Virus record (IMG/VR): IMGVR_UViG_3300043775_003573
Span: 1-45,229 of that record
Origin: a virus
DNA: 45,229 nt
Direction: 5' to 3' (one strand)
Shown one piece after another: positions 5,367 through 44,805 of this stretch. The position numbers and the translations under genes were made by a program. The notes beneath the pieces were generated by a model that searched no databases, was not told where the DNA came from, and was given only the letters and a program-made list of their open reading frames with translations. The first letter of the stretch is position 1. Each line of letters begins with the position of its first letter.

Positions 5367-6152
5367 ATGAATTTTAGACTTCAGACAAGATACGATGAGA
5401 TGTGTTTGGTTATCAATTTAGCCGTAAAAACACCAACAGTTGTAAGAATAAAAATTTATGACGAAATGAAGCCTAAAATAGTCTTTACAGATAGGTATAA
5501 AACTGTTTTTTCAGAAGAAACTTTTTATGTTAGATTGCCCCTTACATCTGATAACATAGTAATTTCTATTTATGATGATAAAATAGGTAATATGCCAAAG
5601 GAACAAGAGAATAATATAATGATTAAAGTAATTGATAAAATTCCTTTGGAAAAAAGACTTGATGTAGTTGATGTAAAAAATAGAACCGTTGCTAATTTTA
5701 TAAATTTCGCTCAGAGGTTTTGTTATAATTCAGCATATTTAGAATCTAATAAAGCGTACCAATCTGATGATGGAGAGTTTTTAATAGAACTTGAACCATA
5801 TATAACTGGAAAAAACGGAAATACTTTAACAACGCCAGCAAGAATCTCTAAAGTAACTGGAAGGATTCAAGTGTCAAAAAAAGAATTTGATACCTATACA
5901 GTGCCTATGAAGTTTGCTATTTTGTGCCATGAGTTTTCGCATTTTTATTTGAATGAAAATATGGACGATGAGAGCGAAGCAGATATAAATGGTTTGTTAA
6001 TATATTTAGGATTAGGTTATCCTAGAATTGAGGGATACCAAGCTTTTTTAGAAGTTTTTAAGGACAGCCCTAACGAGCAGAATAAAAAGCGTTTCGACAG
6101 AATTGATGCTTTCATACAAAATTTTGAAAAAAATAAAATGATTTTACAATAA
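5367..6152 (+). CDS. HExxH zinc metalloprotease
   Basis: 261 aa and one of the few proteins in this block without a membrane segment. H188-E-F-S-H192 is the zinc-binding/catalytic HExxH helix. E204 in the following SEADINGL is the likely third ligand, as in gluzincin-type peptidases with an EAD-x-x-G motif. Residues 1-100 look like a beta domain. It starts 2 nt after the previous stop. Placement among virion membrane genes suggests a maturation protease or a host-entry enzyme acting on the envelope; the motif is clear, the substrate unknown. Confidence 0.7.
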   Translation: MNFRLQTRYDEMCLVINLAVKTPTVVRIKIYDEMKPKIVFTDRYKTVFSEETFYVRLPLTSDNIVISIYDDKIGNMPKEQENNIMIKVIDKIPLEKRLDVVDVKNRTVANFINFAQRFCYNSAYLESNKAYQSDDGEFLIELEPYITGKNGNTLTTPARISKVTGRIQVSKKEFDTYTVPMKFAILCHEFSHFYLNENMDDESEADINGLLIYLGLGYPRIEGYQAFLEVFKDSPNEQNKKRFDRIDAFIQNFEKNKMILQ

Positions 6153-8716: not shown

Positions 8717-9610
8717 ATGAGAAAAACATTAGCAAAAAAAATGCCTTCTAAAGCATCTTCACCAACTAGCGGTGTTTTATTTAAACCATCAAAAGTTTTA
8801 GGTGTAAAAGTTCCAAGACCAGAAAAAAATAAAATTCAGCCAAGAATTTTAGGCGGAAAAATTGCACGACCATCCTCAAAATTAGTTGCGGATATTTCTT
8901 TAGGGCTAACACCTAAAAAGTCAAATGCAAATTTACCTAGCACAAGTTTAGCATCTTTATCTGATTGCGAACAAAAAGCAAGGCAAAAAATGTCGAATAT
9001 GAGATTCATATCAGCTAAAGCTATGAGTGATTACAAAACAGACTTTATAGCTAAATGTATGGGCGTAAAAACAGTACTGCCAGTACCGCAAAGTATTCCA
9101 CAAAAAGAACAAGAAAATAAATATTCGCAGATGTTAAGTATGATACCTAATGAGTTTGTAATTAAGTCAAGTGGCTATAATACATCTTACTATAAAGGCA
9201 AATCTAATATTCATACAAAATTAAGCGCTACAACGGTTGGGATTGGTACTGGTTCTCCAATACAAATTTCTAATGAAGAATTTATAGATGCTTACAGTCA
9301 ATTTTTGAAACAACCAAAAGTAATGATGCCGATAATGCCATCAGCGCCATCAGCGCTATCAGCGCCATCAGCGCCATCAGCGCCATCAGAAATAACATCA
9401 GATTCAGAGTTAGAGCAAGAGCAAGAGTTAGAAACTATTACTCCTAGTAATTCTGCTGATACTGTTGCTCCTATTAATCCTACTAATAATGGCACATCCA
9501 ACATTCAAGTTAATAGTGCGCCTAAAACAAAAAAAACTAATTACTTATTGTATTTTGTTTTGGCTATTTCTAGCGTAATAGTTTTAAAAAAATTTTTAAA
9601 AAAAAAATAA
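8717..9610 (+). CDS. Tail-anchored protein with VADISLGL motif
   Basis: 297 aa with reversed anchoring: a basic Ser/Pro-rich N-terminus, [10 protein letters not shown] at about 56-65, a helical region with cysteines, a central domain, an in-frame SAP repeat (about 209-223), an acidic EQEQELE stretch, and one membrane segment near 275-291 followed by KKFLKKK. The VADISLGL motif is the same short motif that recurs in the N-anchored paralogues from 9754 onward, linking this gene to that family. Confidence 0.55.
   Translation: MRKTLAKKMPSKASSPTSGVLFKPSKVLGVKVPRPEKNKIQPRILGGKIARPSSKLVADISLGLTPKKSNANLPSTSLASLSDCEQKARQKMSNMRFISAKAMSDYKTDFIAKCMGVKTVLPVPQSIPQKEQENKYSQMLSMIPNEFVIKSSGYNTSYYKGKSNIHTKLSATTVGIGTGSPIQISNEEFIDAYSQFLKQPKVMMPIMPSAPSALSAPSAPSAPSEITSDSELEQEQELETITPSNSADTVAPINPTNNGTSNIQVNSAPKTKKTNYLLYFVLAISSVIVLKKFLKKK
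9341..9385 (+). repeat. 5 x 9-nt tandem repeat (TCAGCGCCA)
   Basis: Five head-to-tail copies, the second with one substitution (TCAGCGCTA), encode SAP/SAL units in the linker of the gene at 8717. The unit length preserves frame. Confidence 0.85.
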
Positions 9611-9611
9611 T

Positions 9612-9743
9612 ATGAAAAGCTCAACAATTTTATTAGTCGTTGGTGGATTAGCAATAGGTTATTTATATTTAGAAAATAAAAAACCACAATCTACCGTATC
9701 AAAAAAAGTCAAGCAAATCAATCAAAAGCTAAAACAACTTTAA
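9612..9743 (+). CDS. 43-aa short member of the MKSST anchor family
   Basis: ATG at 9612, in the TAATATG junction typical of this array. [20 protein letters not shown] is the family anchor and [12 protein letters not shown] the start of the linker. It then stops after a lysine-rich helix, lacking the VADxSLGL and NALGYK parts. It is either a truncated paralogue or a minimal anchor peptide like those at 4647-5053. Confidence 0.55.
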
Positions 9744-9753
9744 AAAAAATAAG

Positions 9754-10935
9754 ATGAAAAATTCAACAATTTTATTAGGCGTAGGTGGATTAGCAATAGC
9801 GTATTTTTATTTAAAAAATAAAAAACCACTATCTACTACATCGACAACTCAAACAAATGAACCAACAGGTTCAACAGGTTCAACAGGTTCAACAGGTTCA
9901 ACAGGTTCAACAGGTTCAACAGGTTCAACAGGTTCAACAAGTTCAACAGGGTCAACAGGGTCAACAGGGTCAACAGGGTCAACAGGGTCAACAGGGTCAA
10001 CAGGGTCAACAGGGTCAACAGGGTCAACAGGGTCAACAGGGTCAACAGGGTCAACAGCATTAGTGGAAGAAATGGAAGAAATGGAACCAACGGTACAAAC
10101 ATCACCAACGGTACAAATACCTCCAACGGTACAAATACCTCCAACGGTACAAACATCACCAACGGTACAAATACCTCCAACGGTACAAATATCTCCAACG
10201 GTACAAACATTACCAACGGTACAAACATCACCAACGGTACAAACATTACCAACGGTACAAATACCTCCAATAATTATACCTTCTGTGGCTGATATTTCTT
10301 TAGGATTACAACCTATAACTACAACTACAAAACCTACAGTAGACACGGTTGTATCGGCATTTGCAGAAACGCAAACTGAAAACTATAAAAAAGCAAGAGA
10401 ATTGTCAAGAAATATTAGCGCTCTTTTAATTAAAGTTGATTTATACAAAACTAAGAAAACTAAAAATAAAATCAGAAACGAAATATCAGATAAAACAAAG
10501 CAAGCAAATGCTTTGGGGTACAAAATATTGCCTTACGGTGAAATTGTAGCATTGAACGCTGTTGCAGATATTTCTTTAGGATTAAAACCAACAACCGCTA
10601 ACACACCAAGTTTTTTGACAAGAATTTTAGGAGGAACACTTACACCAAGTGCTTTAACTCAAGCAAGTAGTATGTCAACTCCAGCAAGTAGTGTGAAAAC
10701 TCTACCAAGTTTTTTAGGAGGAGGACGAAGTATTACACCAAGTGTTTTAACTCAAGCAAGTAGTATGTCAACTCCAGCAAGTAGTGTATCAACTCCAATA
10801 AATAGTATAAAAATTTTCGGAGGAAGAGTAATTCCAGTAAGCCCAACAAGTAGTGTAAAAACTCCGCCAATTTTTTTAGGGGGGCGAACAAGCGCAACAA
10901 CAAATAGTTTTCTGTCAAAATTAAAAAGAAGATAA
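9754..10935 (+). CDS. Large MKSST-family anchored repeat protein
   Basis: 393 aa. N-terminal anchor (4-20) plus KNKKP; 21 Gly-Ser-Thr units; an acidic [11 protein letters not shown] hinge; ten PTVQ-(T/I)-x units; [10 protein letters not shown]; a helical region [19 protein letters not shown]; the [13 protein letters not shown] box; then, unlike the shorter members, a second [10 protein letters not shown] and a further 120-residue Ser/Thr/Pro region with repeated FLGGG and TPASSV phrases. The low-complexity part would be an extended, possibly glycosylated stalk. Followed after 1 nt by a near-copy. The long frames on the opposite strand here are repeat artefacts. Confidence 0.65.
9868..10056 (+). 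repeat. 21 x 9-nt tandem repeat (GST codons)
   Basis: Eight GGTTCAACA units, one AGTTCAACA, then twelve GGGTCAACA units run without interruption and encode Gly-Ser-Thr. The third-base change propagating through one half shows stepwise expansion by slippage or unequal recombination. Confidence 0.95.
10087..10266 (+). repeat. 10 x 18-nt tandem repeat (PTVQ codons)
   Basis: Ten copies of an 18-nt unit beginning CCAACGGTACAAA encode PTVQ followed by TS, IP, IS or TL. Four matching copies occur in the next gene. Confidence 0.95.
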
Positions 10936-10936
10936 T

Positions 10937-11863
10937 ATGAAAAGTTCAACAATATTAGGGGTTGGGATAATATCAGTAGTTGGTGTGGGTGCGTATTTTT
11001 ATTTAAAAAATAAAAAACCACTATCGACAACATCGACAACAGGGTCAACAGGGTCAACAGGGTCAACAGGGTCAACAGGGTCAACAGGGTCAACAGGGTC
11101 AACAGGGTCAACAGCATTAGTGGAAGAAATGGAAGAAATGGAACCAACGGTACAAACATCACCAACGGTACAAACATCGCCAACGGTACAAACATCGCCA
11201 ACGGTACAAACATCGCCAACAATTACACCTTCTGTGGCTGATATTTCTTTAGGATTACAACCTATAACTACAACTACAAAACCTACAGTAGACACGGTTG
11301 TATCGGCATTTGCAGAAACGCAAACTGAAAACTATAAAAAAGCAAGAGAATTGTCAAGAAATATTAGCGCTCTTTTAATTAAAGTTGATTTATACAAAAC
11401 TAAGAAAACTAAAAATAAAATCAGAAACGAAATATCAGATAAAACAAAGCAAGCAAATGCTTTGGGGTACAAAATATTGCCTTACGGTGAAATTGTAGCA
11501 TTGAACGCTGTTGCAGATATTTCTTTAGGATTAAAACCAACAACCGCTAACACACCAAGTTTTTTGACAAAAATTCTTGGACGAACACTTACACCAAGTG
11601 TTTTAACTCAAGCAAGTAGTATGTCAACTCCAGCAAGTAGTGTGAAAACTCTACCAAGTTTTTTAGGAGGAGGACGAAGTATTACACCAAGTGTTTTAAC
11701 TCAAGCAAGTAGTGTATCAACTCCAATAAATAGTATAAAAATTTTCGGAGGAAGAGTAATTCCAGTAAGCCCAACAAGTAGTGTAAAAACTCCGCCAATT
11801 TTTTTAGGAGGACGAACAAGCGCAACAACAAATACTTTTCTGTCAAAAGTAAAAAGAAGATAA
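10937..11863 (+). CDS. Tandem duplicate of the large anchored repeat protein
   Basis: 308 aa with the same order of parts as the gene at 9754: anchor, GST stalk (only 8 units), [10 protein letters not shown] hinge, 4 PTVQ units, [10 protein letters not shown], helical region, [13 protein letters not shown], second [10 protein letters not shown], Ser/Thr/Pro tail ending KVKRR. From the first VADISLGL to the second the DNA is essentially identical to the upstream copy, so the duplication or conversion is recent. The two genes differ mainly in stalk length. Confidence 0.65.
   Translation: MKSSTILGVGIISVVGVGAYFYLKNKKPLSTTSTTGSTGSTGSTGSTGSTGSTGSTGSTALVEEMEEMEPTVQTSPTVQTSPTVQTSPTVQTSPTITPSVADISLGLQPITTTTKPTVDTVVSAFAETQTENYKKARELSRNISALLIKVDLYKTKKTKNKIRNEISDKTKQANALGYKILPYGEIVALNAVADISLGLKPTTANTPSFLTKILGRTLTPSVLTQASSMSTPASSVKTLPSFLGGGRSITPSVLTQASSVSTPINSIKIFGGRVIPVSPTSSVKTPPIFLGGRTSATTNTFLSKVKRR
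11042..11113 (+). repeat. 8 x 9-nt tandem repeat (GGGTCAACA)
   Basis: Eight perfect units encode Gly-Ser-Thr, homologous to the 21-unit array in the upstream copy. Confidence 0.95.
11144..11215 (+). repeat. 4 x 18-nt tandem repeat (PTVQTS)
   Basis: Four units starting CCAACGGTACAAACATC encode PTVQTS. They are homologous to the ten-unit array at 10087. Confidence 0.95.
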
Positions 11864-11864
11864 T

Positions 11865-12197
11865 ATGAAAAGTTCAACAGTATTAGGAATTGGCTTATTA
11901 GCAGTACTCGGAGTAGGGGCTTATATTTATTTAAAAAATAAAAAAGCAACCAAATCAAGTGTAACTTTACCTAGCACAAAAAACACATCAAATACAACAG
12001 GCGTTAAAACTTCTTTGTCGGATGATTCTTTAGGATTAAAACCAACTCCAACAAATATTGCAAAAACTTCTGTGTCGGATGCTTCTTTAGGATTAGAACC
12101 AACCCCAACAAGTAGTGTAAAAACTCGACCAATTTTTTTAGGGGGGCAAACAAATCCAGCAATAAGTATGATAATGTCAAAAGTAAAAAGAAGATAA
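11865..12197 (+). CDS. Short MKSST-family member with two SLGL motifs
   Basis: 110 aa. The anchor MKSSTVLGIGLLAVLGVGAY is encoded by DNA also found almost unchanged at 12681, 13220, 13753 and 14337. After KNKKATK the linker carries two SLGL motifs (DDSLGLKPT and VSDASLGLEPT) and ends with the FLGG/KVKRR tail of the two large genes. The NALGYK box is missing, so this looks like a fusion of an anchor to the tail of the preceding type. Confidence 0.6.
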   Translation: MKSSTVLGIGLLAVLGVGAYIYLKNKKATKSSVTLPSTKNTSNTTGVKTSLSDDSLGLKPTPTNIAKTSVSDASLGLEPTPTSSVKTRPIFLGGQTNPAISMIMSKVKRR

Positions 12198-12198
12198 T

Positions 12199-12669
12199 AT
12201 GAAAAGCTCAACAATATTAGGTCTTGGGATAATATCAGTAATTGGGGTGGGTACTTATATTTACTTAAAAAGTGGTAAAATACCATTTTTAGATAAATTT
12301 TTAGGAGAACTTTCTCCAACAAGCGGTAAAGTAAATAACACGGGAAGTACAACAGCTACAACAGGCAGTACAACAACTCCAACAAGCAATAAACCAACAA
12401 ATACAGCTTCTGTAGCTGATATTTCTTTAGGATTACAGCCTAAACCTACAGTAGATACAGTTGTTTCAGCATTTTCAGAAACACAAACTGAAAACTATAA
12501 AAAAGCAAGAGAATTGTCAAGAAATATTAGCGCTCTTTTAATTAAAGTTGATTTATACAAAACTAAGAAAACTAAAAATAAAATCAGAAACGAAATATCA
12601 GATAAAACAAAGCAAGCAAATGCTTTGGGTTACAAAATATTGCCTTACGGTGAAATCGAAAAAATGTAA
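12199..12669 (+). CDS. MKSST-family anchored protein
   Basis: 156 aa. Anchor (MKSSTILGLGIISVIGVGTY), an insert SGKIPFLDKFLGELSPTSGK also present at 13753, a Thr-rich linker, [11 protein letters not shown], then the same helical region as in the large genes ([19 protein letters not shown]) and the full C-terminal box [16 protein letters not shown]. Shows the standard family layout: constant anchor, linker, motif, middle helix, constant end. Confidence 0.65.
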   Translation: MKSSTILGLGIISVIGVGTYIYLKSGKIPFLDKFLGELSPTSGKVNNTGSTTATTGSTTTPTSNKPTNTASVADISLGLQPKPTVDTVVSAFSETQTENYKKARELSRNISALLIKVDLYKTKKTKNKIRNEISDKTKQANALGYKILPYGEIEKM

Positions 12670-12680
12670 ATTAAAATAAT

Positions 12681-13208
12681 ATGAAAAGTTCAACAGTATT
12701 AGGAATTGGCTTATTAGCAGTACTCGGAGTAGGGGCTTATATTTATTTAAAACGTAAAAAAGAAACCACATCAAGTGTAACTGCACCTAGCACAAAAAAA
12801 ACATCACCAACGGTACAAACATCGCCAACGGTACAAACATCGCCAACAATTACACCTTCTGTGGCGGATGCTTCTTTGGGTTTACAACCTAAAGCAACAA
12901 TAGATACTGTTGTTTCAGCATTTTCAGAAACACAAACTGAAAACTATAAAAAAGCTAAAGTAATATCTAAAGAAATTGAAGTTTTGACTAATACTTTAAG
13001 AAATTTAGAAATTGATAAGAAAAAAGAAAGTTCTAAGCCTTTTACAACGGGAAATTATATGGCTGGCGTGAGGGCTAATGCTGGTAAAAATGTGGCTAGT
13101 ATTATATTTGCAATTAGAAGTGTTCAAAAACAAATGTCAGAAAAAACAGCTCAAGCAAATGCTTTAGGTTACAAAATATTACCTTATGGCGAAATCGAAA
13201 AAATGTAA
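12681..13208 (+). CDS. MKSST-family anchored protein
   Basis: 175 aa: anchor, KRKKETTSS linker with two PTVQTS units, VADASLGLQPKATIDTVVSA, then a variable charged helical middle (KAKVISKEIEVLTNTLRNLE onward) and the C-terminal [16 protein letters not shown]. The middle resembles a coiled coil and differs from that of the gene at 12199 while both ends are kept. Confidence 0.65.
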   Translation: MKSSTVLGIGLLAVLGVGAYIYLKRKKETTSSVTAPSTKKTSPTVQTSPTVQTSPTITPSVADASLGLQPKATIDTVVSAFSETQTENYKKAKVISKEIEVLTNTLRNLEIDKKKESSKPFTTGNYMAGVRANAGKNVASIIFAIRSVQKQMSEKTAQANALGYKILPYGEIEKM

Positions 13209-13219
13209 ATTAAAATAAT

Positions 13220-13711
13220 ATGAAAAGTTCAACAGTATTAGGAATTGGATTATTAGCAGTACTCGGAGTAGGGGCTTATATTTATTTAAAAAATAAAAAA
13301 GCAACCACATCAAGTGTAACTGTACCTAGCACAAAAAAAACATCAAATACAACAAGCGTTACACCTTCTGTGGCGGATGCTTCTTTGGGTTTACAACCTA
13401 AAGCAACAATAGATACTGTTGTTTCAGCATTTTCAGAAACACAAACTGAAAACTATAAAAAAGCTAAAGTAATATCCAAAGAGGTTGAAGTTTTGAATAA
13501 TAGATTAAGAACTTTAAACAGTGATTATGCAAGAGAGAGAAGTAAACCTTTTATAATAGGAAATAGCATGACTGGTTTTAGACCTGATAACAAATCAGCT
13601 CAAATTAAATTACAAATTAATTCTGTTGAAAAACAAATGTCAGAAAAAACAGCTCAAGCAAATGCTTTAGGTTACAAAATATTACCTTATGGCGAAATCG
13701 AAAAAATGTAA
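13220..13711 (+). CDS. MKSST-family anchored protein
   Basis: 163 aa, same layout: anchor, KNKKATTSS linker, VADASLGLQPKATIDTVVSA, a variable helical middle (VEVLNNRLRTLNSDYARERS) and [16 protein letters not shown]. Both flanks are near-identical in DNA to the gene at 12681; the middle about 50 residues diverge. Confidence 0.65.
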   Translation: MKSSTVLGIGLLAVLGVGAYIYLKNKKATTSSVTVPSTKKTSNTTSVTPSVADASLGLQPKATIDTVVSAFSETQTENYKKAKVISKEVEVLNNRLRTLNSDYARERSKPFIIGNSMTGFRPDNKSAQIKLQINSVEKQMSEKTAQANALGYKILPYGEIEKM

Positions 13712-13750
13712 ATTAAAATAATGTAAATTAAAATAATGTAAATTAAAATA
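13706..13750 (+). repeat. 3 x 15-nt repeat over a gene end
   Basis: ATGTAAATTAAAATA occurs three times in a row, beginning with the Met-stop codons of the gene ending at 13711. The same unit occurs twice at 14305-14334 and once after other members, so the spacer has been amplified together with the gene end. Each copy contains a start-stop ATG-TAA pair. Confidence 0.9.
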
Positions 13751-13752
13751 AT

Positions 13753-14310
13753 ATGAAAAGTTCAACAGTATTAGGAATTGGCTTATTAGCAGTACTCGGA
13801 GTAGGGACTTATATTTACTTAAAAAGTGGTAAAATACCATTTTTAGATAAATTTTCAGGAGAACTTTCTCCAACAAGCGGTAAAGTAAATAACACGGGAA
13901 GTACAACAGCCCCAACAAATGGTACAAAAAATCCAAGAAAAGGTTTTTTGACAAAAATTCTTGGACGAACACGTCCAAAAGCAAGCACACCATCCATAGC
14001 TGATACTTCTTTAGGGTTACAGCCTAAAGCTACAATAGATACTGTTATATCTATTGTTTCAGAAACACAAACTGAAAACTATAAAAAAGCTAAAGTGCTA
14101 TCTAAAGATATTGAAGTTTTGATGGTAGAATTGAAAAATGCAGAAAATGAATTAAAAAGTTTTGATTACAAACCTATGACTACTTTTGAAACAAAAGCTC
14201 GTAAAAGGGAAGACATTGCGATAATTAAAAAACGAATGTCAGAAAAAACATCTCAAGCAAATGCTTTAGGTTACAAAATATTACCTTATGGCGAAATCGA
14301 AAAAATGTAA
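13753..14310 (+). CDS. MKSST-family anchored protein
   Basis: 185 aa: anchor, the SGKIPFLDKF-type insert shared with 12199, a GFLTKILGRT phrase shared with the large genes, IADTSLGLQPKATIDTVISI, a variable helical middle (KAKVLSKDIEVLMVELKNAE) and [16 protein letters not shown]. It combines blocks found separately in other members, good evidence for mosaic assembly. Confidence 0.65.
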   Translation: MKSSTVLGIGLLAVLGVGTYIYLKSGKIPFLDKFSGELSPTSGKVNNTGSTTAPTNGTKNPRKGFLTKILGRTRPKASTPSIADTSLGLQPKATIDTVISIVSETQTENYKKAKVLSKDIEVLMVELKNAENELKSFDYKPMTTFETKARKREDIAIIKKRMSEKTSQANALGYKILPYGEIEKM

Positions 14311-14334
14311 ATTAAAATAATGTAAATTAAAATA
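14305..14334 (+). repeat. 2 x 15-nt repeat over a gene end
   Basis: Two copies of ATGTAAATTAAAATA start at the Met-stop codons of the gene ending at 14310. Same unit as at 13706-13750. Confidence 0.85.
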
Positions 14335-14336
14335 AT

Positions 14337-14756
14337 ATGAAAAGTTCAACAGTATTAGGAATTGGCTTATTAGCAGTACTCGGAGTAGGGGCTTATATTT
14401 ATTTAAAACGTAAAAAAGCAACCGAATCAAGTGTAACTGTACCTAGCACAAAAAACACATCAAATACAACAAGCGTTACACCTTCTGTGGCTGATGCTTC
14501 TTTAGGTTTGCCTACAAAAGTAACTGCTAGTGCAGAAGAGCAAAAAAACTATTTGGAAGCAAAAGACTTGGCTAGGATTTTATTACTAGATAATGCGAAG
14601 GTATTTGATAATGAGTTTAAATTATTAATTACAAAATATGGAATTAAATGGAATCCTATGTTGAGGCTTACGAGTATTTGGAGTAAAGCTCAAACTAAAA
14701 GAATAAACGCATTAGGCTACAAAGTGTTGCCTAACTACGATATTGAAAAAATGTAA
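14337..14756 (+). CDS. MKSST-family anchored protein, NYDIEKM type
   Basis: 139 aa: anchor, KRKKATESS linker, VADASLGLPTK, a different helical middle with NYLEAKDLARILLLDNAK and a tryptophan-containing segment, and the variant C-terminal box NALGYKVLPNYDIEKM. The same variant ending is found in the gene at 15517, so two C-terminal subtypes exist (LPYG-(E/L)-IEKM and LPNYDIEKM). Confidence 0.65.
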   Translation: MKSSTVLGIGLLAVLGVGAYIYLKRKKATESSVTVPSTKNTSNTTSVTPSVADASLGLPTKVTASAEEQKNYLEAKDLARILLLDNAKVFDNEFKLLITKYGIKWNPMLRLTSIWSKAQTKRINALGYKVLPNYDIEKM

Positions 14757-14763
14757 ATAAAAT

Positions 14764-15135
14764 ATGGCTCTTAATAAATATACACAACAAGAATTTTCAG
14801 ATTGTATATTACTCGATGCAAAATTGCGTAAGAGTATAATTATTGTTGCTGATTTGCAAAAAAAGAAACTTTCAGGAGGATTTAGTGCAATGGACAATCT
14901 TTTATTGAATCAAGAAATTGAGTTAAAAAATAAAAGGGAAATGGAATTTTCTAAATCATCTTGTGCAAATAAAATTGAGTACAAAAGATTATTAGAAACT
15001 GGTCAAATTACTACTGAAATGGCTAAAAAGCAAGAAGATGACATTTTGCCTAAAAATAACAATGAGCAGTACATTTACATTGGAATAGGAGTAGTTGTAT
15101 TAATAACAAGTTTATATTTAATATTAAAGAAATAA
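14764..15135 (+). CDS. Tail-anchored helical protein
   Basis: 123 aa, not a member of the anchor family. A charged helical N-terminal part (1-95) with two cysteines (C13, C62) precedes a C-terminal membrane segment (about 101-119, IYIGIGVVVLITSLYLIL) and KK. Its stop overlaps the next ATG (TAATG), indicating translational coupling. Function unknown. Confidence 0.6.
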   Translation: MALNKYTQQEFSDCILLDAKLRKSIIIVADLQKKKLSGGFSAMDNLLLNQEIELKNKREMEFSKSSCANKIEYKRLLETGQITTEMAKKQEDDILPKNNNEQYIYIGIGVVVLITSLYLILKK

Positions 15136-15512
15136 TGGCAGTATCATCAAAAGATTTAGCTAAAGAATTTCCATACACCGAAGATTGTGAGTTATTGGCA
15201 AAACAAATTGATTTGCTTGTAATAAACAAAGAATATTGGAGTAGGCAATCTAATAATTCAGAAGCAGACGCTACAAATAATTATTTATCAGCTAAAAGAA
15301 AGTGGTATAATGTCTACGGGTGTCTTTCTAAAGTAAACGCTATAAAAATGAAAGATGTTAGCGGTGTTTTTAATGCTTTTGGCGAAGAAGACAAATTAAG
15401 AATAGAAAAACAAATAGCTTCAGAAGTAAAAAAAAGGAACATTATCGGATTATCAGTGTTAATGGTATCTTTGCTTATGATAATTATTTTAAGTGAGATT
15501 AGAAAAAAATAA
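15135..15512 (+). CDS. Tail-anchored helical protein
   Basis: 125 aa, resembling the upstream gene in design: a helical polar domain with a cysteine pair (ECL-type DCELLAKQI early, GCLSKV in the middle), then a C-terminal membrane segment (about 102-119) and EIRKK. It overlaps the previous stop by one base. The two are probably distant paralogues and may pair in the virion membrane. Confidence 0.6.
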   Translation: MAVSSKDLAKEFPYTEDCELLAKQIDLLVINKEYWSRQSNNSEADATNNYLSAKRKWYNVYGCLSKVNAIKMKDVSGVFNAFGEEDKLRIEKQIASEVKKRNIIGLSVLMVSLLMIIILSEIRKK

Positions 15513-15516
15513 TAAT

Positions 15517-16131
15517 ATGAAAAATTCAACAATATTAGGAATTGGCTTATTATCAGTAGTTGGAGTAGGTGCTTATATTTATCTAAAAGGTAAAAAAACA
15601 ACAAATATAACAAGCGGTGCATCCTCTGTAGTAAATAGTTCTTTAGGATTGTCTACTGCATCAACAAATCCTACAACTGAAAATACAAAATTATTGCAGG
15701 ATTTGGGTGTAATAATAACACCCACAACTGTAACTTTAAATATTAAGCCAAACGAAGGTGTTCCTTTGCTTACAACCGAAAAGATACAAAACGCCTTGTC
15801 GGCTTTAGGTATAGACCCAACAAAGTCTATTTCTAAAGAATTGACTCTTCCTAACTATGTTGAAGCTAAAAAAATAGCTAGTGACATGAAGATAATTAAT
15901 GATGGAGCAGGTGCAATTGACCCATATAGAAATCCTACAAAATGGATTTACCCAAAAGAAATATTAAACAAATTTTCTAGTTTAGCAGGACAAACGGTAA
16001 CTTCAACCGCATCATATCGTAATCCCCCTGAGCTTAAACCTAGTCGTTCAGAGTTATTAGCAAATATGACCAAAAAAGTAAACGCATTAGGCTACAAAGT
16101 GTTGCCTAACTACGATATTGAAAAAATGTAA
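15517..16131 (+). CDS. MKNST-family anchored protein, NYDIEKM type
   Basis: 204 aa. I chose ATG 15517 (MKNSTILGIGLLSVVGVGAY), because it aligns with the family N-terminus; an in-frame ATG 8 codons upstream lies inside the preceding gene. A linker with VVNSSLGLSTA (degenerate motif), an inserted 50-residue domain (NIKPNEGVPLLTTEKIQNAL), a helical part with NYVEAKKIASDMK, and NALGYKVLPNYDIEKM follow. Confidence 0.65.
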   Translation: MKNSTILGIGLLSVVGVGAYIYLKGKKTTNITSGASSVVNSSLGLSTASTNPTTENTKLLQDLGVIITPTTVTLNIKPNEGVPLLTTEKIQNALSALGIDPTKSISKELTLPNYVEAKKIASDMKIINDGAGAIDPYRNPTKWIYPKEILNKFSSLAGQTVTSTASYRNPPELKPSRSELLANMTKKVNALGYKVLPNYDIEKM

Positions 16132-16134
16132 ATT

Positions 16135-16329
16135 ATGCCAGCAGGAAAAATATACGATACAGACGAAACAACTAGAATAAAAGATTTTCTAAATATTCAG
16201 ACTAAAGAATTGAAAGCTTTAGAATCAGAAAAATCGGTTACAGATAAAACTGTAATTCGTTATGCTATAGTCATCTCTGGTGCTGTAATTGTTTTGTTAG
16301 CAGTAAAGTTTTTAACAAGAAAAAAATAA
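16135..16329 (+). CDS. 64-aa tail-anchored protein
   Basis: A polar helical N-terminus (1-42) and a C-terminal membrane segment (about 43-60, YAIVISGAVIVLLAVKF) ending TRKK. It starts 3 nt after the previous stop and ends 1 nt before the next gene. The anchoring resembles the genes at 14764 and 15135. Confidence 0.6.
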   Translation: MPAGKIYDTDETTRIKDFLNIQTKELKALESEKSVTDKTVIRYAIVISGAVIVLLAVKFLTRKK

Positions 16330-16330
16330 A

Positions 16331-16930
16331 ATGGGAAAATCGACAACATTAGGAATTGGATTATTAGCAGTACTCGGAGCAGGTGCTTATATTTATCTAA
16401 AAAATAAAAAAGCAACCACGCCAAGTGGAATTATTGATAACACAACAAATAAAACTGGAATTGTAACGCCTCCAAAAAAAGGTTTATTACCAAGTTTTTT
16501 AGGAGGAACACCTCCAAAAGCAAGCACACCATCAATAGCTGATACGTCTTTAGGATTACAGCCTACAACTACAACTACTTCGGTAGTAGATACTGCAACT
16601 GGTGCGACTAAAACAACTAAAACAGATACAACAAGCGGAACTGCTGTAACTACTGTAACAAATGTAATAGACGAGACTAAAACTAATAATTACATCATGG
16701 CAAAAAAGATTTCAGAGCATATCGAATCTTTGTTGATTAAAATTAAAGATTTGAGCATTAAATTAAGTGGTCTATCTGGTTATATGGCTAATGTGGCGTA
16801 TCAAATTACAGAACAAAATAAACTTAAAAGCTTGATAAGGTCTGAAACTGCTTTAATAAAAACAAAAACAGCAGAAGCAAACGCTTTGGGTTACAAAATA
16901 TTGCCTTACGGTTTAATTGAAAAAATGTAA
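16331..16930 (+). CDS. MGKST-family anchored protein
   Basis: 199 aa: anchor MGKSTTLGIGLLAVLGAGAY, linker with GLLPSFLGGTPPK, IADTSLGLQP, a Thr-rich block (VVDTATGATKTTKTD) shared with 17478, a helical middle (NYIMAKKISEHIESLLIKIK) and [16 protein letters not shown]. The first roughly 240 nt are essentially identical to those of the next gene. Confidence 0.65.
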   Translation: MGKSTTLGIGLLAVLGAGAYIYLKNKKATTPSGIIDNTTNKTGIVTPPKKGLLPSFLGGTPPKASTPSIADTSLGLQPTTTTTSVVDTATGATKTTKTDTTSGTAVTTVTNVIDETKTNNYIMAKKISEHIESLLIKIKDLSIKLSGLSGYMANVAYQITEQNKLKSLIRSETALIKTKTAEANALGYKILPYGLIEKM

Positions 16931-16935
16931 ATAAA

Positions 16936-17472
16936 ATGGGAAAATCGACAACATTAGGAATTGGATTATTAGCAGTACTCGGAGCAGGTGCTTATATTTA
17001 TCTAAAAAATAAAAAAGCAACCACGCCAAGTGGAATTATTGATAACACAACAAATAAAACTGGAATTGTAACGCCTCCAAAAAAAGGTTTATTACCAAGT
17101 TTTTTAGGAGGAACACCTCCAAAAGCAAGCACACCATCAATAGCTGATACGTCTTTAGGATTACAGCCTACAACTACAACAGCTACAATAGACGAAACTA
17201 AAACAAATAATTATATTATTGCTAAAAATCTTTCATTAGAAATAATGGATTTGCAAAAAAAGATTAACAATTTATCTATTGATTTTCAAAAAATATTTCC
17301 TAAAAGTCGAATGGAAATGGACATGTATCAAAATATGGAAGTTGACAGAGAGAGAAAAACAAAAGTTGATTTGCCAAAGATGGTAATGACTAGAGATATG
17401 CAGAAAAAATCATCAGAAGCAAACGCTTTGGGTTACAAAATATTGCCTTACGGTTTAATTGAAAAAATGTAA
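16936..17472 (+). CDS. MGKST-family anchored protein
   Basis: 178 aa. N-terminal 80 residues identical to the gene at 16331, then the Thr block is missing and the helical middle differs (NYIIAKNLSLEIMDLQKKIN, with a methionine-rich stretch), ending in [16 protein letters not shown]. Constant ends with an exchanged middle. Confidence 0.65.
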   Translation: MGKSTTLGIGLLAVLGAGAYIYLKNKKATTPSGIIDNTTNKTGIVTPPKKGLLPSFLGGTPPKASTPSIADTSLGLQPTTTTATIDETKTNNYIIAKNLSLEIMDLQKKINNLSIDFQKIFPKSRMEMDMYQNMEVDRERKTKVDLPKMVMTRDMQKKSSEANALGYKILPYGLIEKM

Positions 17473-17477
17473 ATAAA

Positions 17478-18011
17478 ATGGAAAAATCAACAGCATTGGG
17501 AATTGGCTTATTAGCAGTAGTGGGAGTAGGCGCTTATGTTTATTTAAAAAGAAAAAAATCAACTACAACTACAACTACAACCACCTCATCTTCTGCGGTA
17601 GATAGCTCTTTAGGACTACCTGCCGTAACTACAACTACTTCGGTAGTAGATACTGCAACTGGTGCGACTAAAACAACTAAAACAGATACAACAAGCGGAA
17701 CTGCTGTAACTACTGTAACAAATGTAATAGACGAGACTAAAACTAATAATTACATCATGGCAAAAAAGATTTCAGAGGAAATAGCAAGTTTGCAAGATGA
17801 AATCAATAAATTAGAATTAGAATTTACTAAATGGTCTAAAGATTTTAGATTTCGTGGGGTAGGAAGTCGAACAGCTTATATAAATTCACAACGGGTTGAT
17901 ATGGTTACTAAACCTATTTATGGTATAAAAATAAAAATGCAAAACCTAACACCTCAAGCAAACGCTTTGGGTTACAAAATATTGCCTTACGGTTTAATTG
18001 AAAAAATGTAA
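17478..18011 (+). CDS. MEKST-family anchored protein
   Basis: 177 aa: anchor MEKSTALGIGLLAVVGVGAY, poly-Thr linker, VDSSLGLPA (degenerate motif), then the VVDTATGATKTTKTD block whose DNA is identical to that at 16331, a new helical middle with a Trp/Phe/Arg segment, and [16 protein letters not shown]. Last member of the array; a mosaic of its neighbours. Confidence 0.65.
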   Translation: MEKSTALGIGLLAVVGVGAYVYLKRKKSTTTTTTTTSSSAVDSSLGLPAVTTTTSVVDTATGATKTTKTDTTSGTAVTTVTNVIDETKTNNYIMAKKISEEIASLQDEINKLELEFTKWSKDFRFRGVGSRTAYINSQRVDMVTKPIYGIKIKMQNLTPQANALGYKILPYGLIEKM

Positions 18012-18022
18012 ATTAAAATAAC

Positions 18023-18586
18023 ATGAAAAAATCTTTGTTAATAATAGGTGGATTTGGTGTAATTGGTTTTGCACTATATCGTTATTTTAAGTATCAGGTA
18101 GAGTTAGCTTTGCAATATGACTACAATGTTAAAAACCTTAATGTTGTAAGTGTAGATGAAAACAAAGTTAACGTAACGGTTGATTTTGATATTACTAACA
18201 AATCTAGCTTTGAGATAATATTAAATAGCTATGATTTAGAATTTTACTTTAAAGATGTACCGTTTGGAACCTCTTTTTCTGCAAATCCTATAAAAATCAT
18301 GCCTAACAGTAAGTTTACAGTAAAAGCTAATGGGATTATTGATGCAAATGCAGTAAAGTCTTCTGCGTTAGCCTTAGCTTCTGATATATGGGCTAGGAAG
18401 CCAATAAATATACAACTTAAAGGAAAAATGAAAATTAAATTTTTAGGTATTAACACTACCCTTAATTTTGACAAAGAAAGTTTCGAATATTCAGCAGACT
18501 TGTTGAAAGATTACGGACTAGATAAGCCTTTGCATAATTTAGCAGTAAAATATCCAAAATTAGGTAGCGTATTAAGAATAAAATAA
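18023..18586 (+). CDS. WHy/LEA14-like anchored protein
   Basis: 187 aa. Membrane segment 5-20, then a beta domain. The segments VDFDITNKSSFEIILNSYD, LEFYFKDVPFG, IMPNSKFTVKANGII and KGKMKIKFLGI match the LEA_2/WHy pattern: an immunoglobulin-like sandwich of polar beta strands with a conserved NPN-like turn. WHy proteins are known as desiccation and stress proteins and in some bacterial envelopes. Here it would stand on the viral membrane. Family assignment by pattern, moderately sure. Confidence 0.55.
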   Translation: MKKSLLIIGGFGVIGFALYRYFKYQVELALQYDYNVKNLNVVSVDENKVNVTVDFDITNKSSFEIILNSYDLEFYFKDVPFGTSFSANPIKIMPNSKFTVKANGIIDANAVKSSALALASDIWARKPINIQLKGKMKIKFLGINTTLNFDKESFEYSADLLKDYGLDKPLHNLAVKYPKLGSVLRIK

Positions 18587-19363: not shown

Positions 19364-22300
19364 ATGGGAAATGTAACTAAATCACAAGCAAATAATATAA
19401 GAACGCCAGACGGTAACAGTCTAGCTGTTTTTGTTGACGGAGTAAGCGGAATAATAAAGGTAAAAGATATAATGGGTAACATTCAACCGTTATCTGATTA
19501 TATAAGTGGTGGTGGCGGAGGAGGATGTAGCCCTTTTCAATACGATGCTAACGCAACGGGTATAGAGCCAATACTAGGCACTAATAATGCTTCGGGTTGT
19601 TTTGCTACTATTGGAGGAGGTGGCACTAATAATGCTTCTGGATGTTTTTCTGCAATTGTTGGAGGTAGTAACAATACTGCTACTGCAAATTGCTCAACAG
19701 TTGGTGGGGGGTCTCTCAATACAGCTACTGGAACCTGCTCTACTGTTAGCGGAGGTCGATGTAATAGTGCTTTAAATGCTAGTGCAACAGCTGGAGGAGG
19801 TTTTAGAAATATCGCTTGTGGTCAAGGGTCAATAATTGGAGGTGGTGTTTGTAATACTGCTTTTGGATTTTGCTCAACAATAGGAGGTGGGGAATCTAAT
19901 ACTGCTAATGGATATTGCTCAACAATAGGTGGTGGTATTTGTAATGTTACTAACGGATATGGTTCAACTGTGGCTGGGGGTAGTTTTAATAAGGCTTTTA
20001 GTCAAGACGTAACAGTTGGAGGGGGGCAATCTAATATTGCTTGCGCTAGTAAATCAACAATTGCGGGAGGTTATACCAATACTATTTGCCTTGGAGCTGA
20101 TAATTCAGCAATAGGCGGAGGTTCAACTAATATTGTTTCTGCAACTGCTTCTTCTTCGACAATTGGTGGTGGTTGTGGTAATACTGCTTCTAATGTTTGG
20201 TCAACACTAGGTGGTGGTTATAGTAATACTGCTTCTAACATTAAATCAACAGTTGGTGGGGGTGGAAATAATACTGCTTCTGGTTATAGTTCAACAGTTG
20301 TTGGAGGTTGTCAAAATACAGCTTCTGGCTGTAATTCAGCTGTTGCAGGTGGACAATATAACCTTTCTTCTGGTATTAAATCAACAGTTGGTGGAGGTAG
20401 CAATAATACTGCTTCTGCAAATTGCTCAATAGTTGCAGGTGGTTGTACTAATACTGCTTCTGGATGTTGGTCAGGAATAGTTGGAGGTCGTAGAAACACT
20501 TCTTGTGGAAATTATTCGATTGTTTCAGGTGGTTATTGCAACACAGCTAACGGAGTACTCTCTTTTATAGGTAGTGGAAAATGTAACAGAATATTCCCTT
20601 CTGCAAATCTTGGCGGTAGTGCAAGATATGGAGATGTAATAGCAGGGGGTTGTAAAAATACCATTAATACTAATACTTATGCTACTACTTACTCGCCTGT
20701 TGGAGGAAGTACAATTTCTGGAGGGGTTTGTAATGTCATAACGCCTTACCAAGGAAGTGTGACAATTAGTGGCGGTACTAATAATATAGCGCAATGTGAT
20801 TTAACAACAGTTGGAGGTGGTGTGCAGAATACTGCTTCTGGATGTTATTCTGTAATTGGTGGCGGTTCTGGCAATACTACATCTCAAAAAGGTTCAGTCA
20901 TTTCTGGAGGTCAAGGTAATACTGCATCAAATTATTTTGCATCTTCACTTGGAGGTAAGTCAAATATTGTTAGTGGTACATACTCTTCAATTGTAGGAGG
21001 TAAGATAAATGTTAATTCAGGCTATCAGTCGTCAATTTTAGGAGGAACTTACAATGTTATGTGCGGTACTCAATCAGTAATAGGTGGTGGTTTTTGCAAC
21101 ATTAATTCAGGTACAACCTCAACAATTGGTGGTGGTAATACTAACAATGCTTCTAATACAGACACAACAATTGGCGGAGGTTCAAATAATACTGCTTCTG
21201 CTTGCCGTTCAACAATTGGCGGAGGTGCTTTTAATACTGCTTCTGCAACTGTTTCAACCGTAGGAGCTGGTTGTTGCAACATAACAAATTCAAGGTTTTC
21301 ATTTATTGGAGGAGGACAAAGAAATATAATTCAATCGCCAACAAACGAATGTTGTTCTCTTGGAGTTACAATAGGCGGTGGTATTGGTCATAATACAAAT
21401 GGCGGAACTTTTAACGCTACTACTGGGATTTTAAGTGGCGCAATTACTTGTTGTAATGCTGGTAAATTATCTACAATTGGAGGTGGTTTTAGAAATAAAG
21501 CTATTGGTTCTTGTTCAACAGTTGGAGGAGGCTTAAGCAATGTTGCTTCTACTGACTCAACCATTGGAGGTGGTTTTTGTAACAATGCTTCTAATAGTAG
21601 TTCAACAATTGGAGGAGGTGGTACTAACACTGCATCGGGAGTTTCTTCAACAGTTGGTGGTGGTGGTCAATGCTACAATAATGGGGGTTTTTATGGCACT
21701 GGAAATATTGCTTCTGGTACGTCATCAACAGTTAGTGGTGGTCAGGGAAATACTGCATCGGGAATTGCTTCAAAAGTTGGTGGGGGTTGTTATAATACTG
21801 CTTCTGGATGTTATTCTGTAATCGGGGGTGGTTGTTTAAATACTGCTTCTGTTTCTCTATCAACGGTTGGAGGAGGCTCAAGCAATATTGCTTGTAGTAC
21901 AGCAACAGTTGGGGGTGGTTTTAGTAATACTGCGTGTGGCGATGTTTCAACAATTAGTGGGGGTTGTTATAACAATGCTTCTGCTTCTTATTCAACAATT
22001 GGTGGAGGTCGGCAAAATACTGCTTGTGGAAATGCTTCGTCAATTGGAGGGGGTTGTTATAATACTGCTTCTGCTTGCCGTTCAACAATTGGTGGAGGTG
22101 CTTTTAATACTGCTTCTGCAACTGTTTCAACCGTAGGAGCTGGTTGTTGCAACATAACAAATTCAAGGTTTTCATTTATTGGAGGAGGACAAAGAAATAT
22201 AATTCAATCGCCAACAAACGAATGTTGTTCTCTTGGAGTTACAATAGGCGGTGGTGTTGGTCATAATACTACTGGAGGAACTTTTAATGCCTCTACGGGA

Positions 22301-23065
22301 GATTTAACTGGCGCAATTACTTGTTGTAATGCTGGTAAATTATCTACAATTGCAGGTGGTTTTAGAAATAAAGCTACTGGTTGTTTGTCAACAGTTGGAG
22401 GTGGTGCATCTAATACTTCCTCTAATTATCACTCAACCGTTGGAGGTGGTTTTAGTAACAATGCTTCTAATAATAGTTCAACAATTGGAGGAGGTGGTAT
22501 TAACACTGCATCGGGAGTTTCTTCAACAGTTGGTGGTGGTGGTCAATTCTACAGTAGTGGGGGTACTTATGGCGCTCCAAATATTGCTTCTGGTACGTCA
22601 TCAACAGTTAGTGGTGGTCAGGGAAATACTGCATCGGGAATTGCTTCAAAAGTTGGTGGTGGTTATAGTAATACTGCTTCTGGATGTTATTCTGTAATCG
22701 GGGGTGGTTGTACAAATACTGCTTCTGTTTCTCTATCAACGGTTGGAGGAGGCTCAAGCAATACTGCTTCTGGTTTAGCAACAATTGGGGGTGGTTTTGG
22801 AAATCTTGCGTCTGGCTGTATTTCAACAATTAGTGGGGGTTGTTATAATACTGCTTCTGGAATTAGTTCTAGTATCTTAGGAGGTGAATCAAATAGCACA
22901 AACACTTGTGCTTGTGCAATGATTGTAGGCTCTAATATTACAGCAAACAGAGCTTGTGCTACATTTGTAAATAATCTTTCTATTACAAACATCCCAACAT
23001 CATCAGCAGGTTTACCTACTGGTTCTGTATGGAGTAATTCAGGAATTTTGACAATAGTTCCGTAA
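19364..23065 (+). CDS. Giant GGG-NTASG repeat fibre (1233 aa)
   Basis: 1233 aa. A unique N-terminal domain (1-48) and a Gly6-Cys hinge precede SPFQYDANATGIEPILGTNN. From about 75 to 1185 the protein is built of roughly 14-residue units of the type S-T-(V/I)-GGG-x2-N-TASG-x2. They resemble the beta-roll head repeats of YadA-type trimeric adhesins. The cap (MIVGSNITA, CATFVNNLSI, IPTSSAGLP, GSVW) is shared with the two following fibres. Two copies of an insert with GAGCCNITNSRFSFIGGGQR lie within. Cysteines are frequent at fixed repeat positions. Probable receptor-binding spike/fibre; mechanism inferred. Confidence 0.7.
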   Translation: MGNVTKSQANNIRTPDGNSLAVFVDGVSGIIKVKDIMGNIQPLSDYISGGGGGGCSPFQYDANATGIEPILGTNNASGCFATIGGGGTNNASGCFSAIVGGSNNTATANCSTVGGGSLNTATGTCSTVSGGRCNSALNASATAGGGFRNIACGQGSIIGGGVCNTAFGFCSTIGGGESNTANGYCSTIGGGICNVTNGYGSTVAGGSFNKAFSQDVTVGGGQSNIACASKSTIAGGYTNTICLGADNSAIGGGSTNIVSATASSSTIGGGCGNTASNVWSTLGGGYSNTASNIKSTVGGGGNNTASGYSSTVVGGCQNTASGCNSAVAGGQYNLSSGIKSTVGGGSNNTASANCSIVAGGCTNTASGCWSGIVGGRRNTSCGNYSIVSGGYCNTANGVLSFIGSGKCNRIFPSANLGGSARYGDVIAGGCKNTINTNTYATTYSPVGGSTISGGVCNVITPYQGSVTISGGTNNIAQCDLTTVGGGVQNTASGCYSVIGGGSGNTTSQKGSVISGGQGNTASNYFASSLGGKSNIVSGTYSSIVGGKINVNSGYQSSILGGTYNVMCGTQSVIGGGFCNINSGTTSTIGGGNTNNASNTDTTIGGGSNNTASACRSTIGGGAFNTASATVSTVGAGCCNITNSRFSFIGGGQRNIIQSPTNECCSLGVTIGGGIGHNTNGGTFNATTGILSGAITCCNAGKLSTIGGGFRNKAIGSCSTVGGGLSNVASTDSTIGGGFCNNASNSSSTIGGGGTNTASGVSSTVGGGGQCYNNGGFYGTGNIASGTSSTVSGGQGNTASGIASKVGGGCYNTASGCYSVIGGGCLNTASVSLSTVGGGSSNIACSTATVGGGFSNTACGDVSTISGGCYNNASASYSTIGGGRQNTACGNASSIGGGCYNTASACRSTIGGGAFNTASATVSTVGAGCCNITNSRFSFIGGGQRNIIQSPTNECCSLGVTIGGGVGHNTTGGTFNASTGDLTGAITCCNAGKLSTIAGGFRNKATGCLSTVGGGASNTSSNYHSTVGGGFSNNASNNSSTIGGGGINTASGVSSTVGGGGQFYSSGGTYGAPNIASGTSSTVSGGQGNTASGIASKVGGGYSNTASGCYSVIGGGCTNTASVSLSTVGGGSSNTASGLATIGGGFGNLASGCISTISGGCYNTASGISSSILGGESNSTNTCACAMIVGSNITANRACATFVNNLSITNIPTSSAGLPTGSVWSNSGILTIVP

Positions 23066-23080
23066 ATAAAAACATAAAAA

Positions 23081-23341
23081 ATGAATAAACTAGAAATAGT
23101 AGTTGGAAGTTTGCAAATATCAAATGGAGGTGTAATAATACTTGTTATTCCAAAAGATGCGTGTGCTATTGATACGTTAGCTTTACAAAATACAATTCCT
23201 ATTGCTTCAATTTTTAATAAATATTTAGCGAACTTTACATCAGTATTTAATCAGCCTTTATCAAATTGTGTTGATTCAACTAATACTGTATTTACACAAA
23301 GTACTTTTATTGCTTTTGCCGAAGCTAATTTAGGGTTTTAA
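23081..23341 (+). CDS. Stand-alone fibre N-terminal domain
   Basis: 86 aa, closely related to the first 86 residues of the fibres at 23351 and 25652 (shared VFNQPLSNC, FIAFAEANLGF, NKYLA/G) but ending exactly where the glycine hinge begins in those. So it is the virion-attachment or assembly domain without a shaft. It may be a remnant of a lost fibre, or a short capping/competing subunit that sets how many full fibres are incorporated. Confidence 0.65.
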   Translation: MNKLEIVVGSLQISNGGVIILVIPKDACAIDTLALQNTIPIASIFNKYLANFTSVFNQPLSNCVDSTNTVFTQSTFIAFAEANLGF

Positions 23342-23350
23342 AAAAAAATA

Positions 23351-25642: not shown

Positions 25643-25651
25643 AAAAAAATA

Positions 25652-28948: not shown

Positions 28949-29767
28949 ATGGAAAAGCGTTTTTTCTTTAATTCATCATTGCCTAGAGCTGGCTCAACAC
29001 TTCTTCAGTCAATAATTGGAGACAATCCTGATTTTTATGTAACTCCTACTTCGGGGTTTTTAGAATTAATCTATGGAGCAAAGGGGAATTATAATGCTTC
29101 TCCAGAATTTAAAGCTCAAGACCCTAAACAAATGGACGATGCTTTTTTGTCTTTTTGTCGTTCGGGAATGGAGGGTTATTTCTCTAGCTTAACTAACAAG
29201 CCTTACATTTTAGATAAAAATAGAGGTTGGGGTATAAGTTATGGATTAGCGAATAAATTCTATCCAAACCCAAAAATAGTATGTATGGTTCGGGATTTAC
29301 GAGCTGTATTTGCTTCTATGGAAAAAAACTTCAGAAAAAATCCAACAAAGGAAAATCACGTTCAAAATCCTAGTCAATTGGTAGGTACTACTTTGAAAAA
29401 AAGAGTAGATATATGGGCTGATGGTATGCCAGTAGGCATATCTCTAGACCGACTGAGAGATATGATTGACCAAGGAATCCACAACAATATTTTATTCATT
29501 CGATACGAGGATTTAATGGAAAATCCAGAAAACGAAATAAGACGATTTTATGAGTTTGTAGGACTTCCTTACTACGAGCATCAATTTGTAAATATAACTC
29601 AACACACACACGAAAACGATGCTATTCATGGCATATACGGAGACCATAAGATTAGACCAAAATTTGAAAAGCTTCCAAATGATTACGAAGATATTTTAGG
29701 TTTTGAGATTTGTCAATCAATAAAAAATTCATATCCGTGGTTTTATAGATATTTTAATTATCTTTAG
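28949..29767 (+). CDS. PAPS-dependent sulfotransferase
   Basis: 272 aa, typical length for the family. It carries the 5'-phosphosulfate-binding loop LPRAGSTLL (11-19), the 3'-phosphate-binding strand/helix VCMVRDLRAVFAS (111-123, with R115 and a Ser) and the FIRYEDLMENPENEIRRFYEF helix expected in Sulfotransfer_1/3 proteins. It transfers sulfate from PAPS to an acceptor hydroxyl or amine. The adjacent APS kinase could supply PAPS and the adjacent GT9-like enzyme the sugar. Acceptor unknown: capsid glycan, fibre, lipid or host surface polymer. Confidence 0.85.
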   Translation: MEKRFFFNSSLPRAGSTLLQSIIGDNPDFYVTPTSGFLELIYGAKGNYNASPEFKAQDPKQMDDAFLSFCRSGMEGYFSSLTNKPYILDKNRGWGISYGLANKFYPNPKIVCMVRDLRAVFASMEKNFRKNPTKENHVQNPSQLVGTTLKKRVDIWADGMPVGISLDRLRDMIDQGIHNNILFIRYEDLMENPENEIRRFYEFVGLPYYEHQFVNITQHTHENDAIHGIYGDHKIRPKFEKLPNDYEDILGFEICQSIKNSYPWFYRYFNYL

Positions 29768-29800
29768 AAATAATTTCAAGAAAACTAACAACGACAAAAG

Positions 29801-44781: not shown

Positions 44782-44805
44782 AGTTTTTTGTTGTTAATTG
44801 GTTTG

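Follow-up and report, generated by a model that had tools for sequence, protein, structure and literature searches.

A lineage-specific tandem array of putative membrane-anchored stalk proteins with hypervariable tips, probably expanded by recombination, in an uncultivated virus

Introduction

How does a virus come to carry a row of genes whose products begin and end alike and differ in between, and what might such a set do? Retroelements, inversion and point mutation are the means by which phages are known to diversify their contact proteins, and modular proteins with constant and variable parts exist in bacteria. The locus that raises the question lies in IMG/VR record IMGVR_UViG_3300043775_003573, from an uncultivated virus; the whole stretch analysed, 45,229 b, is called the window here. 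A sequence-only reading of the window had described an array of paralogues at 9612-18011 and proposed a recombining diversity cassette, expressed all at once rather than by switching. The interpretation preferred here, which we hold to be quite probable, is that a gene for membrane-anchored stalks, hypervariable at the tip, has undergone a lineage-specific tandem expansion here, driven by general homologous recombination together with RecT.

The virus and its clade

A 101,210 b IMG/VR contig (G001) contains the window, and the compared parts are identical save for two differences: a deletion within the array and a single mismatch/gap close to the fibre-like genes. The clade to which both belong is marked by one gene:

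524-1225, + strand: capsid candidate (jelly-roll-like), 233 aa, marker of the virus clade

Its product is encoded by 39 IMG/VR contigs (63-100% identity); the lengths of three of them, 100-102 kb, suggest a genome of about that size. The predicted model is beta-rich and weak (pLDDT 56), with a weak best match in the PDB to a nucleophosmin core (E 0.012), and the modelled product resembles jelly-roll cores weakly. A short paralogue of the capsid candidate lies at 32550-32993 (32% over 74 aa, E 2e-9).

Small genes fill the stretch from the capsid candidate to an LEA_2 gene at 18023; almost every one has a single transmembrane (TM) segment, either N- or C-terminal, and relatives show the same layout. 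The Terminase_6N and Phage_portal profiles have no match in 10 contigs, nor is a terminase or portal among the families listed for 47 proteins of G001. The weak jelly-roll likeness, these negative searches and the run of small TM genes together suggest a virus whose particle lacks a tail and contains a membrane. AAA proteins are present, at most as candidates for a packaging ATPase of the FtsK/A32 type. The INPHARED phage-genome collection holds no relative of the virus, and searches of GTDB genomes with RecT and the capsid candidate yielded no host; signal peptides ending SAQ/YSQ and A-rich start regions indicate that the host is probably a member of the Bacteroidota.

PRD1 and PM2 have genomes far smaller than ~100 kb. 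They have many small membrane proteins, as the present virus is predicted to have, and differ from it in that no sequence relation was found. Both are internal-membrane phages, and several PRD1 membrane proteins are needed for the genome-delivery tube (PMC6356626).

The array and its members

The 13 paralogues claimed for the locus are all there: 13 anchor-bearing open reading frames on the + strand between 9612 and 18011, each intact and each with a TM anchor. Gaps between the genes are mostly 1-41 nt. Three unrelated small membrane-protein genes (14764, 15135 and 16135), ordinary conserved genes in relatives, interrupt the array. The members and their neighbours are as follows:

8717-9610, + strand: C-terminal TM protein, non-member, one VADISLGL motif
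9612-9743, + strand: m01, stub of 43 aa with the anchor only; 89% identity to m02 over 83 nt
9754-10935, + strand: m02, 393 aa; anchor, (GST)n and PTVQTS/IPP repeat linker, hairpin
10937-11863, + strand: m03, 308 aa; young copy of m02 whose linker repeats are shorter (94.7% identity over 741 nt)
11865-12197, + strand: m04, 110 aa, two SLGL-like segments, no hairpin; anchor as m07, tail as m02/m03
12199-12669, + strand: m05, mosaic of an m08-like 5' block and an m02/m03-like hairpin, by blocks and triplet test
12681-13208, + strand: m06, 175 aa, typical member with AlphaFold2 model; flanks identical to m07
13220-13711, + strand: m07, 163 aa; reading frame, pairwise blocks, synonymous divergence
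13753-14310, + strand: m08, 185 aa; reading frame, pairwise blocks, synonymous divergence
14337-14756, + strand: m09, m07-like 5' half and m10-like 3' box (VLPNYDIEKM)
14764-15135, + strand: C-terminal TM protein, non-member, conserved in relatives
15135-15512, + strand: C-terminal TM protein, non-member, conserved in relatives
15517-16131, + strand: m10, 204 aa; relative in another virus (L011:16674-16958)
16135-16329, + strand: 64-aa C-terminal TM protein, non-member, conserved in relatives
16331-16930, + strand: m11, 5' half identical to m12, then m13 block; missing from G001
16936-17472, + strand: m12; reading frame, pairwise blocks
17478-18011, + strand: m13; reading frame, pairwise blocks
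18023-18586, + strand: LEA_2-domain TM protein; conserved, borders the array on the right

The constancy of the ends holds in part. The anchor is present in all 13 members and the NALGYK box in 11 of 13, the members at 9612 and 11865 lacking it. The box is terminal in nine members and internal in those at 9754 and 10937, which carry the constant ends plus an extra tail; in m02 the internal LGY box is followed by a second SLGL segment and a KRR tail. With a stub at 9612 and a member at 11865 that has neither hairpin nor box, the description 'constant ends' is strict for nine members only. The (V/I)ADxSLGL motif, also said to be common to the members, is exact in nine, variant in those at 11865, 15517 and 17478, and absent from the stub.

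The motif occurs outside the array as well, in the gene at 8717 and in one near 99.6 kb of G001 (L091:9622-9987). These encode differing membrane proteins with the same VADxSLGL linker cassette, which in L091 matches the array over 29 nt at 93%. Its presence in otherwise different proteins suggests that the motif moves between protein families.

Predicted shape and site of variation

An AlphaFold2 model of m06, made from an alignment with 26 relatives, predicts a membrane helix (residues 5-27), a disordered linker (28-74), an antiparallel hairpin (75-117 and 128-161, pLDDT mostly above 90) and a small beta-hairpin formed by the LGY box. The hairpin tip and the linker are where the sequences vary; the hairpin base and LGY box are fixed. 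The middle is thus variable, as had been claimed, mainly at the tip and in linker length, not throughout. A known family or fold for the hairpin was sought and rejected: no Pfam match reaches the cut-off, PHROG matches are weak (E 0.001 or worse), and comparison with the PDB and viral structures gives no significant match.

Linker length may have a second source. Microsatellites of 9-nt GST and 18-nt PTVQTS repeats occupy 9863-10057, 10086-10261 and 11037-11114, and repeat number differs between the recent duplicates m02 and m03, so that repeat slippage would be another route to linker length variation in the array.

Mosaicism inside the array

The near-identical flanks noticed in several members correspond to exact repeats of 344, 252, 151, 146, 138 and 118 nt. 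The recurring blocks are there too: VVDTATGATKTTKTD is common to the members at 16331 and 17478 (178 nt, 95.5%), and SGKIPFLDKF to those at 12199 and 13753 (184 nt, 88%). This sharing of flanks and blocks is far beyond chance. Further pairwise matches run in the same manner: m04 matches m07 over 179 nt (92.7%) and the m02/m03 tails over 97 nt (82-84%), and m09 matches m07 over 173 nt (95%) and m10 over 63 nt (95%).

Triplet tests bear out recombination of blocks, significantly for m05, m11 and m08 and more weakly for m09 and m04. To the left of nt 187, m05 agrees with m08 at 61 of 71 informative sites (61:10); to the right it agrees with m03 at 72 of 86 (14:72), and 0 of 200,000 permutations were equally extreme. 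For m11, the match is to m12 at 42/42 sites and then to m13 at 51/82 (3 of 200,000 permutations). The case of m09, with its m07-like front and m10-like box, is weaker (547 of 200,000, p about 0.003). Such permutation tests presuppose an alignment of similar quality over the whole gene, and the middles align poorly, which makes some significant triplets outside those named unreliable; a long list of all triplets was set aside because unrelated middles align arbitrarily.

Synonymous sites, which should be free to change under selection on the protein, agree with this. In the closest pairs, synonymous divergence rises within single genes from 0 in the flanks to 0.37-2.3 in the middles. Between m06 and m07 there are 0 synonymous changes at 25 + 14 sites in the two hairpin bases, against a dS of 0.37 in the tip; between m11 and m12, dS is 0.02 before the tip, 2.3 in the tip and 0 after it. 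The m02/m03 pair has a dS of 0.02 from SLGL onward and the 344-nt exact repeat in common. Such a pattern is not what common descent under plain selection yields: as read from these alignments, either the ends have been converted or the tips replaced. A search of the relatives for a source of the middles found none, save the m10-like gene in L011.

A difference of one member between near-identical contigs

G001 lacks exactly 605 b of the array, a clean loss of m11 whose crossover site is an identical tract present twice in the window:

16324-16575, + strand: left copy of the identical 252-nt tract; the G001 deletion of 605 b has its crossover here
16929-17180, + strand: identical 252-nt tract, right copy

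The copy-number comparison that had been proposed for related genomes therefore finds one member fewer in a near-identical contig, but assembly collapse could give the same result. An artefact at the 252-nt exact repeat, with an array that may be fixed, is a possibility of some weight, on the doubtful side. It gains from another contig of the same virus, L086, which carries m11 yet begins inside it (window position 16604), 28 nt past the repeat end, as if the assembler had been stopped by the repeat. It loses from the longer 344-nt exact repeat of m02/m03, which is intact and uncollapsed in the same G001 contig, and the mosaicism of the array is independent of this comparison. The deletion is probably real. 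More generally, short-read assemblies may miscount array copies.

Candidate recombination engine and expression

Two genes on the opposite strand are relevant to how the copies could recombine:

34362-35231, - strand: RecT single-strand annealing protein, candidate recombination engine (Pfam E 2.7e-30)
35466-36251, - strand: PD-(D/E)XK nuclease that may act with RecT (Pfam E 0.0011, short of the cut-off)

Many phages encode RecT, and 7/10 contigs here have it. By association, the virus's own RecT plausibly aids recombination in the array.

Variation driven by a retroelement, invertase or integrase was rejected. Reverse transcriptase (RVT_1) has no match in the 9 clade contigs searched, where control genomes were positive; neither Phage_integrase nor Resolvase (tyrosine and serine recombinases) is found in the contigs searched; and the array has no inverted repeats beyond one chance-like 22-nt inverted pair. 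Promoters of their own for single members were likewise rejected, promoter-like matches being not above shuffles. The proposal that all members are expressed at once fits the tight same-strand run of genes, each with its own start codon, and the lack of inverted repeats, RT, integrase and resolvase in these searches.

The same protein family in relatives

Many relatives in the clade encode the same protein in 1-3 copies, counted with a profile built partly from those same sequences. Its architecture there is a TM anchor, a low-complexity/disordered linker, a two-helix hairpin and an 'LGY' box near the C-terminus. The sequence-only reading had set against itself a fixed set of members with tree-like divergence and no exchange of blocks. 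In five relatives (G016, G017, G018, G019 and G021) the first two copies are indeed positional orthologues with conserved heads and tree-like divergence, and one or the other of two unrelated head types occupies the second position. Heads are thus largely fixed, yet anchors and some tips exchange. The two anchors of G021 are 91% identical over 128 nt despite unrelated heads, and its first-copy anchor is only 74% identical to the G016 orthologue, though the head is 85% identical. The first genes of G017 and G019 share 40% identity at the hairpin tip and mostly 82-98% elsewhere, with an upstream flank 96% identical. By these comparisons some genomes have had their anchors homogenised, at least one close pair differs by replacement of hairpin tips, and the window's lineage exaggerates a property of the whole family. 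Since most heads in relatives are stable orthologues, fast diversification is not general.

These data bear on a neutral account, concerted evolution, in which replication-associated recombination homogenises the ends and the tips drift under relaxed constraint; the members would then have no diversity function and be redundant spacers or tethers between membrane and shell. We regard this as a serious contender, somewhat short of an even chance. The tip dN/dS is near 1 (0.38/0.37 for m06/m07), as relaxed constraint would give, linkers differ by simple repeat number, a stub and a hairpin-less member exist, and the low copy number in relatives is also in keeping with it. Less easily accommodated are the intact reading frames of every member, the variation at the same site, the hairpin tip, in separate lineages, and the purifying selection that keeps head types between G021 and G017 (dN 0.11, dS 0.80).

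The relatives also contain another set of anchor-sharing paralogues (RNSEGFFGASG), variable in their tails, at L079:3109-4083 and in L074/L075 (G017). The pattern of constant anchor and variable tail is therefore not unique to the LGY family.

A proposed mechanism

On the preferred reading, a membrane-protein family found across an undescribed virus clade has expanded in tandem. Each stalk would run from an N-terminal anchor through a flexible Ser/Thr/Gly/Pro linker to a hairpin of two antiparallel helices, capped by a short beta-hairpin (the LGY box). Copies would recombine via homology in the anchor, hairpin base and box; this would duplicate or delete members and homogenise those three parts, leaving or bringing in differing hairpin tips and linker lengths. 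General homologous recombination with RecT, not an RT or site-specific recombinase, would be the likely engine. The array would be co-expressed as one operon and the stalks placed in the virion membrane, their tips contacting a varying partner during entry, such as the host envelope or peptidoglycan. Candidates for that partner are a host envelope component at entry, peptidoglycan, or other virion parts; in one relative, a neighbouring gene has a weak peptidoglycan-binding match (E 0.0016). A wider proposition, that a ~100-kb tailless membrane-containing clade diversifies stalk tips by cassette exchange with its own annealase and bears many variants per particle at once, where others switch or hypermutate a single receptor protein, is offered only tentatively and is rather unlikely as it stands.

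The members could instead act in the host inner membrane, in superinfection exclusion or anti-defence, with tips in an arms race. African swine fever virus (ASFV) and poxviruses have multigene families with such host-directed roles, as large DNA viruses do, and a single TM anchor, small size and variation at the tip would suit them. Such a role is nonetheless unlikely: the members lie inside a run of conserved TM genes, close to the fibre-like genes and the capsid candidate rather than in an accessory region, and the family is present across much of the clade.

Comparison with known systems

ASFV carries lineage-variable multigene families, for example MGF360/505 (PMC8941908). They resemble the locus as lineage-variable paralogue arrays in a large DNA virus, and differ in having no known sequence relation to it and in not being stalks with one anchor and variable tips. 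In poxviruses, vaccinia K3L arrays undergo recombination-driven copy-number change and homogenisation (PMC6115191). As there, tandem copies in a DNA virus would be gained and lost by homologous recombination and variants spread between copies in a manner like gene conversion; unlike K3L, where copies of one gene were amplified experimentally, the array has 13 members with diverged tips and conserved ends, and virus, host and protein are unrelated. Phage diversity-generating retroelements produce localised variation in otherwise constant, presumed contact proteins (PMC10743442). Variation in the array is similarly localised in otherwise constant, presumed contact proteins, and arises, unlike theirs, by block replacement, insertion/deletion and repeats, with no RT in 9 clade contigs.

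Recombining gene arrays are already known from poxviruses and asfarviruses; within the part of the literature covered, none of this kind is reported in a phage-like virus, where it appears to be new. If the preferred reading is true, protein variety would be reached by a further route that needs none of the switching or mutation machines known from phages: a standing, co-expressed paralogue array with homogenised ends and exchangeable tips. A base that is fixed and a tip that is free would offer an anatomical handle for asking what the tips touch during infection.

Further features of the window and G001

Three consecutive long TVGGGxxNTASG repeat proteins, YadA-head-like by eye and with strong internal DNA repeats, are encoded at 19364-28486; they are likely fibres, and the region is a possible recombination hot spot. 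Adjoining sulfotransferase and adenylylsulfate-kinase genes (28949-30265) possibly sulfate host or virion glycans. A metallopeptidase-like gene with an HExxH motif (HEFSH) lies at 5367-6152; its product matches no Pfam family and has a constant length of 261-262 aa in all inspected relatives. G001 also has about six adjacent DNA methyltransferase-like genes (L087:1943-7910). At the end of the window, on the - strand, is a virus-encoded tmRNA gene (44803-45161), with a full Rfam match (82.6 bits) and a tag ending ...EELQLVA.
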